DNA of 26,482 nucleotides, from positions 1 to 26,482 of IMG/VR virus record IMGVR_UViG_3300025655_000016; one strand, 5' to 3'. Positions 1,722 through 26,066 of this stretch are shown here, piece by piece (position 1 is the first letter of the stretch; the number at the start of each line of letters is the position of its first letter). This DNA is from a virus. The notes under the pieces were generated by a model. That model searched no databases. It saw nothing but the letters and a program-made list of their open reading frames with translations, and was not told the origin of the DNA. The position numbers and the translations under genes were made by a program.

Positions 1722-3034
1722 CAACAACACAACAACAATCAAAAATAGGTATGAAAATGACACGACAAGAAATGGACAGATTCAAGGCACTGATGGCATT
1801 GGCCAAAGATGAACTTGGTGTGGTGGTAGAAGATAAAGGGAATCCACCAGATGCAGACATTGACACTTGGGATATGTTGCGGAAGGTGACCAAGAAAGGA
1901 ACTGGAATGCTGACACCATTGAACTGCAGATACAACACAGCCACCATATTGAGACAAGACCCAAGATATTCAAGTCTCTGTTACAATGAACACAGTGACA
2001 AGATTCTATTGGATGACACAATGGTTGATGATGCCATGATGGAACGGATTGCACTGGAATTTGAAGAGAACTACCGATACAAGGTGACAGACAAAGCACT
2101 TCGGGCCAGTGTTATCATGGTAGCCCAAGAACGGACCATTGAACCCATCAAGGAATGGTTGACCAGTATTCCAGAATGGGATGGAGAAGACAGAATCCAA
2201 TGGTTTTTCCACAACATCTTGAATGCCAAGATTCCAGATGGTGCATCACAGTTGGTGACAGAAATGTCTTGCAAGTGGTTTATCAGTTGTGTGGCCAGAG
2301 TCATGGAACCCGGTTGCAAGATGGACACATGTTTGGTGTTGGTTGGTGCCAAGGGAATGAGAAAGTCCACAGCACTGAAGGAACTGGCAAGTGAAGAATA
2401 CTTTTCAGATTCCAACATCAACATCAGTCACAAAGATTCATATGAGCTGTTGCACCAGTCTGGTGTTTGGATTTGGGAACTGGCAGAAATGCATGCACTC
2501 CAGGGAAAGACAGCAGCCAATGCAAAACAGTTCTTGACCAGTGCCAGTGACAGATATAGACCAGCCTATGCCAAGATGCCAGTCCAACGAAGCAGAAGAA
2601 CAGTGTTCACAGCATCCACCAATGACTATCAGTTCTTGTCTGATGGTCCTGAACGCAGATTCTGGATTGTGGAGGTGGGTTCCAAGATTGACATCCAGTA
2701 CATCAAAGAGAACAGAATCCAACTGTGGGCAGAAGCTTTGCACTATTATAGACAAGGACTGGAATGGTGGTTGTTAGAAGAATCAGAAGAAAAGTTGATG
2801 GAGTATCAACAGTCATTCATCATCGATGACCCGTGGACAGTCAAGGTATTGGAATGCATCAAGATGAACCAAGGACATGCAACCACCACACAAATCATGG
2901 AACACTTGCAACTGTCAGCTGCAATGCAACACAGTGGATTCAGTCGAAGGATTGCCCAGATATGTCGTGACTGTGGATATGAACAGTTCTTCAGTGGAGA
3001 GCAGAAGACAAGAATGTGGAGAAGAAAGCGATAG
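1718..3034 (+). CDS. VirE-type superfamily 3-like replicative helicase/ATPase
   Basis: The 438-residue protein fits the virulence-associated E (VirE) ATPase family found beside phage primases. A P-loop GAKGMRKS lies at about residues 210-217, with arginine where the usual second glycine stands. VWIWELAEM, about 40 residues on, is the Walker B segment, and STNDYQFLSDGPERRFW is the family's characteristic sensor and arginine-finger stretch. An N-terminal region with EWLTSIPEWDGEDRI is also typical of the family. A winged-helix-like tail (residues about 370-438, ATTTQIMEHLQLS) may bind DNA. ATG 1718 was chosen for the ATGA overlap seen throughout this genome; ATG 1757, which follows AGG at good distance, is a serious alternative. 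The gene ends just upstream of the DnaA-box array, so the replication operon abuts its origin. Confidence 0.82.
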   Translation: MTTTQQQSKIGMKMTRQEMDRFKALMALAKDELGVVVEDKGNPPDADIDTWDMLRKVTKKGTGMLTPLNCRYNTATILRQDPRYSSLCYNEHSDKILLDDTMVDDAMMERIALEFEENYRYKVTDKALRASVIMVAQERTIEPIKEWLTSIPEWDGEDRIQWFFHNILNAKIPDGASQLVTEMSCKWFISCVARVMEPGCKMDTCLVLVGAKGMRKSTALKELASEEYFSDSNINISHKDSYELLHQSGVWIWELAEMHALQGKTAANAKQFLTSASDRYRPAYAKMPVQRSRRTVFTASTNDYQFLSDGPERRFWIVEVGSKIDIQYIKENRIQLWAEALHYYRQGLEWWLLEESEEKLMEYQQSFIIDDPWTVKVLECIKMNQGHATTTQIMEHLQLSAAMQHSGFSRRIAQICRDCGYEQFFSGEQKTRMWRRKR

Positions 3035-3092
3035 TTTGATTCTGTTGTCAGAACTATAGTCACAGTTGATATTCACCAGACAAAACAAACTA

Positions 3093-3204
3093 TGTGGATA
3101 ACTTATCAACAGGGTGTGGATAACTTGTCCACAGACTTATCCACAATACTTGTCCACAAGTGTGGATAACTTGTCCACAGGGTGTGGATAACTTGTCCTC
3201 ATTC
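3093..3204. other. Replication origin: DnaA-box array
   Basis: Five perfect DnaA boxes are present: TGTGGATAA at 3093, 3115, 3161 and 3183, and the inverse TTATCCACA at 3137. The starts are 22, 22, 24 and 22 bp apart, about two helical turns. Between them sit one-mismatch boxes (TTATCAACA at 3103; TTGTCCACA at 3125, 3150 and 3171). The repeating unit is a near-dyad, TGTGGATAACTTGTCCACA, so each unit offers two facing boxes about one turn apart. AT-rich DNA follows directly (3199-3235). Clustered boxes next to a replication operon are the standard mark of a DnaA-dependent origin. The boxes are seen; origin function is inferred. Confidence 0.88.
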
Positions 3205-3221
3205 AGATTATATGATATAAT
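3193..3221 (+). promoter_or_regulatory. Sigma70 promoter overlapping the last DnaA half-unit
   Basis: TTGTCC at 3193-3198 and a perfect TATAAT at 3216-3221 are separated by 17 bp. The -35 element is part of the final DnaA repeat, so DnaA binding would compete with RNA polymerase. Transcription should begin near 3228. Confidence 0.6.
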
Positions 3222-3227
3222 GAATAT

Positions 3228-3303
3228 GAAGCTATCTTCTCCAGTAGATATCTTTGATTGATTGTTGTTTGAGGGGCCATCCATTGGGTGGTCTCTTTTG
3301 CTT
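3228..3303 (+). ncRNA. Putative origin-proximal small RNA (about 75 nt)
   Basis: This is the stretch between the predicted start of the 3193-3221 promoter and the terminator at 3271-3307. It has no convincing reading frame or Shine-Dalgarno site. It begins near a small hairpin (GAAG and CTTC around 3228-3241) and ends in the terminator stem. An RNA beside an origin could act as a replication primer or as a copy-control RNA, or it could simply be transcription that helps melt the DNA. Its existence is inferred from promoter and terminator alone. Confidence 0.4.
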
Positions 3304-3307
3304 TTTT
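3271..3307 (+). terminator. Rho-independent terminator after the replication operon
   Basis: A hairpin at 3271-3295 pairs GAGG with TCTC and CCATCC with GGGTGG (one G-T pair in each), with a GG bulge and an ATT loop. The T-rich run TTTTGCTTTTTT follows. It would end both the early operon and the proposed small RNA. Confidence 0.7.
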
Positions 3308-3326
3308 CATCCAATACCTTGTTCGA

Positions 3327-3370
3327 TATACAGATGAAATCAGATATATACAGATAAAATCAGATAACTG
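3327..3370 (+). repeat. Left CAGAT array, 10-bp phased iterons
   Basis: CAGAT begins at 3331, 3341, 3351 and 3361, exactly one helical turn apart, so all copies lie on one DNA face. At the larger scale these are two tandem 20-bp units (3327-3346 and 3347-3366) that differ at one position. Bases 3347-3367 recur as a perfect inverted copy at 3572-3592. Such iterons usually bind an initiator or regulator protein; the binder here is unknown. Confidence 0.7.
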
Positions 3371-3440
3371 GTTGGTACTTTGTCCAGTTGCCATCGATAC
3401 TGTAGAGAAAAATCACCAGTTTTGTCGATGTCGCTATCTG

Positions 3441-3527
3441 GGTTTACATATTTTAAATATACTAAAATCAAAAAAGTTTAGTGAAAAATTCTATTATATA
3501 TAGATATATATATATACTATATAGAAC
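3441..3527. other. AT-rich core between the CAGAT arrays (possible unwinding element)
   Basis: This is the most AT-rich stretch of the genome, with A and T runs and an alternating TA tract. The tract at 3489-3526 is nearly self-complementary (TTCTAT near the left end, ATAGAA near the right), so it could extrude as a cruciform or melt easily. No gene is supported here. It sits between the two inverted CAGAT arrays and about 240 bp past the DnaA boxes, which suits an unwinding site, but this is inference. Confidence 0.5.
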
Positions 3528-3563
3528 CATTGGGAACAGTAGAACAAAAGACCATGTTAGACT

Positions 3564-3609
3564 ATCTGATTTTATCTGATTTTATCTGTATATTTTGCCA
3601 AGTCATCTG
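3564..3609 (-). repeat. Right CAGAT array, inverted 10-bp phased iterons
   Basis: ATCTG, the complement of CAGAT, begins at 3564, 3574, 3584 and 3605 (steps 10, 10 and 21), mirroring the left array. Bases 3572-3592 are the perfect inverted copy of 3347-3367. The array lies just past the stop of the minus-strand gene at 3617. Confidence 0.68.
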
Positions 3610-3616
3610 TATTCAA

Positions 3617-3961
3617 TCACTTGGATTCCAGTTGTCTGATTGCTCTTTTGACCCATCTTCTGGCAGCAGTTCCACCCCACAAAGCCCAAGCGATGGCCGC
3701 CTTGGATGTTCTGTCTTGTCTGGCCTTGGATTCTTGTTCTGATTCACCATGTCTTGCAAACCATGCATCCATCAACTTCAGCTGTTCCAAGTCAACAGAA
3801 CCAGATGCCAATCTTCTAGCAGTTCTCATTCCAGTACCGGGAACCCTTTTGCCACCTTCATCTTTGAATGCAGCTCTTTTGGACATGGGAAGAGATATGT
3901 TATAGTCGATTGCTCTTTTTGCAATCAGTTGGATGTCTTTGGGTACTGTTACAGTTGGCAT
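3617..3961 (-). CDS. Conserved-type phage protein of unknown function (minus strand)
   Basis: This 114-residue basic protein is one of only two minus-strand genes. From residue about 40 to 105 it shows a pattern I associate with a short domain found in many phage proteins: MRTARRLASG, then a helix ending in MDAWFARHGES, then AAIAWALWGGTAARRW. The function of that domain is not established to my knowledge. The start ATG at 3961 follows AGGA at about 5 bases. The gene runs towards the origin and ends just before the right CAGAT array. A TTGACA lies upstream on its strand (3994-3989), but no good -10 follows at normal spacing. It is divergent from the acidic gene starting at 3996, only 34 bp away. 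Coding status is well supported by the domain pattern; the role is unknown. Confidence 0.72.
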   Translation of the reverse strand: MPTVTVPKDIQLIAKRAIDYNISLPMSKRAAFKDEGGKRVPGTGMRTARRLASGSVDLEQLKLMDAWFARHGESEQESKARQDRTSKAAIAWALWGGTAARRWVKRAIRQLESK

Positions 3962-25434: not shown

Positions 25435-25481
25435 TATAAACAGATGGACAAACCATCTAACAACAATCAAAGAGGTACAAA

Positions 25482-25742
25482 ATGAGAACACTACAAGATA
25501 CAGCATTGAACATCAGTGATGCATGGATTCATGAAAGAACATTCAGCACTGGTGATGGTCAAGTCAAGTACACAATCACATGGACATATGTTGGTAAATT
25601 CCTGTCCAGAAGAGCAGTGGCCACAGTCAGAAGTGAACAGACTGGACTTGTATTTTCAATGACCAAGACCAACATGACAACAAGAATGGACTTGGCTGAA
25701 ATCATCTTCGCAGATTACACATCATATAAGGCCCGCCAATAA
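25482..25742 (+). CDS. Early protein of unknown function (86 residues)
   Basis: This is the first gene behind the strong early promoter, with the strongest ribosome site in the genome (AGAGGTACAAA directly before ATG 25482). The product is mixed alpha/beta with several Thr-rich strands (VKYTITWTYVG, RAVATVRSEQTGL) and no membrane segment. First early genes of phages often make host-takeover proteins, but nothing here identifies its target. I do not recognise it. Confidence 0.68.
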   Translation: MRTLQDTALNISDAWIHERTFSTGDGQVKYTITWTYVGKFLSRRAVATVRSEQTGLVFSMTKTNMTTRMDLAEIIFADYTSYKARQ

Positions 25743-25928: not shown

Positions 25929-26066
25929 ATGACAAGACAACAATCAAAACAACTTGGAACCAACATTGGAATCTTCTTTGTGGCACTTGGAATGGCCATC
26001 TTGATATTCCCATCATTCAAACTGTTGGCATACATTGCCACATTGGTCAATGGGGTGTTGGTATGA
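25929..26066 (+). CDS. Small single-pass membrane protein (45 residues)
   Basis: The frame ATG 25929 to TGA 26066 encodes a basic N-terminus (TRQQSKQ) and one long hydrophobic stretch (residues about 12-43, GIFFVALGMAILIFPSF and LLAYIATLVNGVLV), possibly two short helices. The start lies one base after the previous stop, and the stop overlaps the next start as ATGA, so it is a coupled operon member. An early membrane protein could act in exclusion or alter the host envelope, but no function can be assigned. Confidence 0.6.
   Translation: MTRQQSKQLGTNIGIFFVALGMAILIFPSFKLLAYIATLVNGVLV

Follow-up and report, generated by a model that had tools for sequence, protein, structure and literature searches.

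A small RNA predicted at the 3' end of a phage replication operon probably base-pairs with the leaders of the primase and helicase genes of that operon and restrains their translation. The window, meaning the whole 26,482-nucleotide stretch of DNA analysed here, is one circular tailed-phage genome with an end repeat of 127 bases. In the mechanism proposed, the RNA would have its own promoter and terminator and would be transcribed from the region where the primase-helicase operon ends, beside a putative origin. Its open, U/G-rich linker would pair with the helicase and putative primase leaders along an uninterrupted run of 11-12 bases that lies upstream of the start codon, weaker pairing would extend into the Shine-Dalgarno region, and the most likely effect would be to block ribosome binding. 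As the number of operons or genomes rises, the RNA would damp the synthesis of the replication proteins. We infer from the sequence that the RNA is produced, that it pairs and that pairing represses, together with any input from DnaA; repression is preferred to activation because of the position of the predicted sites.

The helicase gene (1757-3034, + strand) encodes a VapE-type replicative helicase of 425 amino acids (Pfam PF05272, 9e-66; PHROG 1313, 2e-79), with a start set by relatives, and is both the upstream neighbour of the small RNA unit and one of its predicted targets. The other is a putative DNA primase gene (846-1721, + strand), named from a weak, partial match to PHROG 2135 (3e-7). 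Profile matches identified further genes of the window as those of a RusA-like resolvase, a terminase and a major head protein. Against named phages, the best helicase matches reached about 30% identity, all of them below 35%, the terminase matched at 21-26% identity, and a DNA search with positions 3040-3600 gave no match; by such comparisons, no isolated phage appears close to the window phage. Searches of bacterial genomes returned a single distant match to the helicase profile (26% identity) and nothing related to the small convergent protein encoded at 3617-3961.

The small RNA unit and its conservation

The small RNA promoter (3193-3221, + strand), located by sequence scan, consists of the -35 element TTGTCC (3193-3198), a 17-nt spacer and the TG-extended -10 element TATAAT (3216-3221); it matches 10 of the 12 consensus bases, and its geometry is kept in relatives. 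The predicted RNA of about 76-80 nt (3228-3307, + strand) has its start placed from the -10 element and its end in the T tract of an intrinsic terminator (3271-3307, + strand), which a terminator scan resolved into a 12-bp stem (3271-3297) and the T-rich tail TTGCTTTTTT (3298-3307); no other terminator was seen downstream of the helicase gene. Reading of the sequence revealed no credible gene between promoter and terminator, the one ATG frame (11 codons, at 3226) having no ribosome-binding site. The initial annotation, which had described this promoter with its spacer and TATAAT, a -35 inside the last DnaA unit, a terminator hairpin following without an intervening gene, and an RNA of about 75 nt, was accurate on all these points. 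A small-peptide reading was set aside, no conserved frame being found by reading across representative units, and Rfam gave no match in the window at gathering score.

The window RNA folds better than its shuffles (z = -2.9), mainly by virtue of the terminator. For the window's clade, the predicted fold starts with a stem-loop at the 5' end (3228-3255, + strand, in the window), continues with an open U/G-rich linker and closes with the stem of the terminator. Although its sequence differs greatly between lineages of this clade, the 5' stem-loop is predicted in each; in the distant clade, many units measure only about 60 nt, and a clear 5' stem is missing from them. Predicted fold, alignment and complementarity all point to the linker (3256-3271, + strand; core TTGATTGTTGTT at 3258-3269) as the candidate pairing segment: its columns are the most conserved in an 11-sequence alignment and are mostly unpaired in the predicted folds.

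Within the window alone, the promoter-terminator unit is at chance level, and its significance comes from relatives: the 3 kb around it hold 8 promoter-like sites against 7.9 expected from shuffled sequence, and 2 terminators against 1.7, neither count being significant. Relatives were collected through the helicase (14 loci, then 80 kept of 87 matches) and through the small convergent protein (at least 74 loci). The 170 loci with a helicase match yielded 81 distinct downstream regions, with the convergent gene in place in 59. An automatic scan found a promoter-terminator pair in 48 of the 81 regions; seven pairs were set aside as chance-like (L074, L059, L219, L208, L213, L066, L191), which left 41 units, 38 of them among the 59 distinct regions with both flanking genes. 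The other 21 regions of these 59, mostly from more distant phages, had no unit at the expected place, and two loci in which a unit is possible by eye (L219, L087) were excluded from the count. The layout shared at this position by the related uncultured phages is a promoter, a C-poor and U/G-rich body and a terminator, adjoining the putative origin, the stretch from promoter to hairpin being exemplified by TTGTTTGTTTGTT and GATTGATTGTTGTT. In some relatives (L002, L005, L173), the helicase gene and the RNA unit are separated by an inserted gene, apparently for a DNA methyltransferase.

Promoter architecture was compared in 36 representative units, picked for having the unit and thus giving no measure of its absence rate. 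The spacer is 17 nt in 27 of them, 16 nt in 8 and 18 nt in 1, and the -35 starts with TTG in 27; in five (L035, L036, L039, L061, L220) manual placement set the promoter on TATACT, and the -35 there is poor. Shuffled versions of the unit's own 110 nt matched or exceeded the real promoter score, at the proper distance, in fewer than 5% of cases for 15 of 18 lineages (combined p 4e-15); L173, L035 and L045 missed this level. When the 49 terminators of 11 complete genomes were ordered by promoter score, the RNA units took ranks 1-9, 11 and 13, and the unit is therefore unlike the usual terminator in these phages. A covariance model of the close clade (R1, five pairs retained) detects a single unit in the window and in each of three close genomes and none in genomes of the distant clade, so that it does not join the two clades; because of this, position and layout serve to recognise the unit in the distant clade. 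What we claim for that clade is accordingly limited to a predicted unit with matching layout at the corresponding position, and does not include a shared target.

The hairpin might be nothing other than the terminator of the helicase operon, next to a promoter-like sequence that is incidental or weak and gives rise to no functional separate RNA. Its standing as the sole terminator after the helicase gene would agree with this, as would the chance level of the promoter within the window. The promoter geometry is nevertheless fixed across relatives while the surrounding sequence diverges, and the linker is both conserved and matched to targets, and we consider this explanation unlikely. We regard the predicted promoter-terminator unit as real, and conservation in relatives supports the presence of a small RNA gene next to the putative origin, as the initial annotation had suggested. 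Retention of the promoter-terminator pair was one of the checks it had put forward, and the pair is kept in 38 of the 59 regions; relatives devoid of the promoter, which it held would speak against the RNA, were not encountered in the close clade.

DnaA-type boxes, the putative origin and the convergent gene

A repeat search placed an array of DnaA-type boxes at 3093-3201, with five perfect TTATCCACA boxes within 3093-3191 and a degenerate last unit (ACTTGTCCTCA, 3191-3201) that contains the -35. Beyond the terminator, it delineated a region (3326-3593) made up of iterons (3326-3367), an AT-rich core (3489-3526) and inverted iterons (3563-3593), which would be the origin; many relatives also have iterons flanking an AT-rich core past the terminator. 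The iterons of the window (CAGATAAAAT) flank an AT-rich palindrome in opposite orientations, and in relatives the iteron word differs (ATACACCAAAA, ACAGATGATT) with the layout unchanged.

With the DnaA-type array on one side and the iterons on the other, the RNA could be a replication primer or an origin-activating transcript under DnaA control, a reading that we consider very improbable. The terminator ends the RNA before the iterons, and arrays upstream of the promoter occur in only 5 of the 36 units, from two lineages (the window's and that of L173/L175). The primer RNA of the initial annotation was rejected, as the terminator closes the transcript about 20 nt short of the first iteron and would not let it run into the origin; the best-conserved part of the RNA is the linker, which matches the helicase and primase leaders. 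DnaA-type boxes are found only downstream of the terminator in 4 of the 36 units, and 27 have no DnaA-type array. With upstream arrays in so few units, DnaA control can only be a local addition: a promoter blocked by DnaA, also proposed initially, may exist in the window phage and those closest to it, and DnaA control as a general feature was discarded because the overlap of array and promoter is not conserved. In L037, L043, L052 and L053, the arrays stand after the terminator, as if the array had moved around a fixed unit.

The small convergent gene (3617-3961, - strand) marks the opposite side of the putative origin. Its product carries the motif LMxAWFARH...SKAAIAWALWGG, matches PHROG 2859 (5e-6) and occurs in at least 74 loci; it was set aside as a profile query, its matches being swamped by a widespread motif. 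By the libraries searched the gene is not cII-like, and it has no visible terminator before the unit. An RNA acting in OOP-like fashion, as a cis-antisense RNA on the 3' end of this gene, would suit the 29 of 36 regions, window included, in which no minus-strand terminator was found before the unit. In the other 7 such a terminator is present, and the match of the linker to the replication-gene leaders would be left unexplained; there is very little probability in this explanation.

Complementarity to the replication-gene leaders

The targets were predicted by complementarity to the RNA. The helicase-leader site (1731-1752, + strand) is formed by AACAACAATCAA (1731-1742), complementary to the linker, followed by the Shine-Dalgarno region, ahead of the start codon at 1757; the putative-primase-leader site (821-842, + strand) is formed by ACAACAATCAA and a GATATC match, ahead of the start codon at 846. 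Cofolding with the window RNA yields gains of about -14 kcal/mol for the helicase and about -21 kcal/mol for the primase. The 11-mer ACAACAATCAA has four copies on the + strand of the window, against 0.05 expected, and every copy is at a gene start. A further copy of the target motif, likewise found by complementarity (25459-25470, + strand), precedes a small ORF starting at 25482, and the fourth copy of the 11-mer (25929-25947) is just inside the start of another small ORF (start codon 25929).

Among relatives the matching sequence varies yet still fits the linker, as in L173 (linker GTTGTTTGTTTGT, helicase leader ACAAACAAACAA) and L178 (linker GATGTTTGTATGTTGT, helicase leader ACAACATACTGACATC). 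The primase target is weaker in the closest relative, G001 (rank 4), because a gene has been inserted before the primase; this gene, of 293 amino acids, lies directly 5' of the primase and takes over a leader carrying the target motif.

The helicase was first chosen by inspecting the window and three relatives, and only the later screens are independent of that choice. With regions antisense to the RNA itself excluded from the rankings, and gene starts taken from a simple purpose-made caller, the start region of the helicase gene comes out first or second among 35-39 genes in 7 of 11 complete genomes when each gene is scored for complementarity to the RNA of its own genome; it ranks fourth in G009 and 25, 23 and 26 in G004, G007 and G012, respectively. 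An unbiased screen of 36 ortholog groups across the 11 genomes, which are not fully independent (G001 shares the RNA of the window, and G006 and G007 are close to each other), placed the helicase first (p 2e-5) and the primase second (p 4.5e-4), followed by a tail gene (0.013). Helicase and primase kept these positions when the window was left out (2e-4 and 4e-3); restricted to the distant clade, the screen singled out no gene group (tail gene 0.02, helicase 0.05).

Linkers and targets were swapped among seven lineages of the window's clade, with one representative per lineage and three choices of representatives reported: for two choices, 1 of 5040 permutations reached the true pairing, namely the identity itself, and for the third choice 45 did, the figure being 3 of 5040 when duplex energy was used. 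Linker and target change together in the window's clade, and their own pairings beat nearly all swapped ones. Against dinucleotide shuffles, 6 of the 7 lineages were significant (p < 0.05) and L181 missed; both partners are of low complexity (U/G against A/C), which eases matches, and shuffles and swaps remove this effect only partly. Computation shows the unit and its conservation, an open linker and, within the window's clade, a complementarity specific to each lineage.

The complementarity to a translation start region of the RNA's own operon, present in the window's clade, is not found in most distant lineages. Of 12 such lineages submitted to dinucleotide shuffling, only L031 and L052 showed significant pairing with the helicase or leader gene. 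In L031 the significant pairing involves a small gene located ahead of the helicase and overlapping its start, whose leader is matched by the RNA without mismatch over 12 bases (AATAACCGAATA). This match hints that the same circuit may work there through translational coupling. As a general rule for the distant clade, pairing through the helicase or a preceding small gene was rejected, the match being strong in L031 with little elsewhere.

The linker could also act as part of a 3'UTR element, pairing inside its own operon mRNA and bringing the 5' leader together with the 3' end, with an effect on translation or decay. The unit is on the operon strand at the operon 3' end in the window and in relatives, and the complementarity is to the leaders of that very operon, both in keeping with such an element; a conserved promoter of its own would, however, be needless, and we judge this arrangement improbable. 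With a separate small RNA as the preferred reading, the replication-control role put forward by the initial annotation gains support in the window's clade, by a route that it had not foreseen, namely predicted pairing at the sites where ribosomes would bind the helicase and putative primase mRNAs.

Relation to known regulatory RNAs

CopA and RNAI are plasmid copy-control antisense RNAs, fully complementary in cis to their targets. The phage RNA would resemble them in damping replication-protein synthesis in step with copy number, and would differ in using a short, imperfect match from elsewhere in the operon. A plasmid-like replication control may be envisaged, in which an RNA gene at the origin sets primase and helicase translation by pairing, DnaA arrays sense the host initiator in some lineages, and linker and target coevolve across lineages; we offer this wider scheme tentatively and regard it as rather doubtful.

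Targets are known for only a few phage small RNAs. If the mechanism is true, it represents RNA feedback on the phage's own replication machinery, by an RNA that tracks the leaders of its replication genes through sequence change, and it offers precise, testable pairings in uncultured aquatic phages. A literature search covering few subscription papers and no preprints gave no account of such an RNA, and the word helicase is absent from the main text of a review of phage small RNAs (PMC12197685). Among the RNAs treated there, lambda PreS acts on host dnaN, and VpdS of VP882 acts on phage and host mRNAs through Hfq (PMC12197685). The RNA described here is predicted to be, like these, a phage-encoded, trans-acting small RNA bearing on replication; it differs in its place beside the origin, for which the parts of that review drawn on here describe no counterpart.

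OOP RNA of lambda is antisense to cII and was formerly taken for a replication primer (PMC12197685). The predicted window RNA shares its short length, own promoter, terminator-defined end and proximity to a phage origin, and is distinguished by predicted targets in trans, the helicase and primase. The autoregulatory small RNAs OppZ and CarZ of Vibrio cholerae are derived from 3'UTRs, being cut from mRNA by RNase E (PMC7398697). In the window and its relatives, the unit likewise lies at the operon 3' end and finishes at the operon's terminator, and the pairing with the operon's own transcript that inhibits translation in the case of OppZ and CarZ (PMC7398697) is predicted here. OppZ and CarZ are bacterial and processed by RNase E, whereas the present RNA belongs to a phage, has replication genes as its predicted targets and possesses a conserved promoter of its own, which favours an independent start over RNase E processing.
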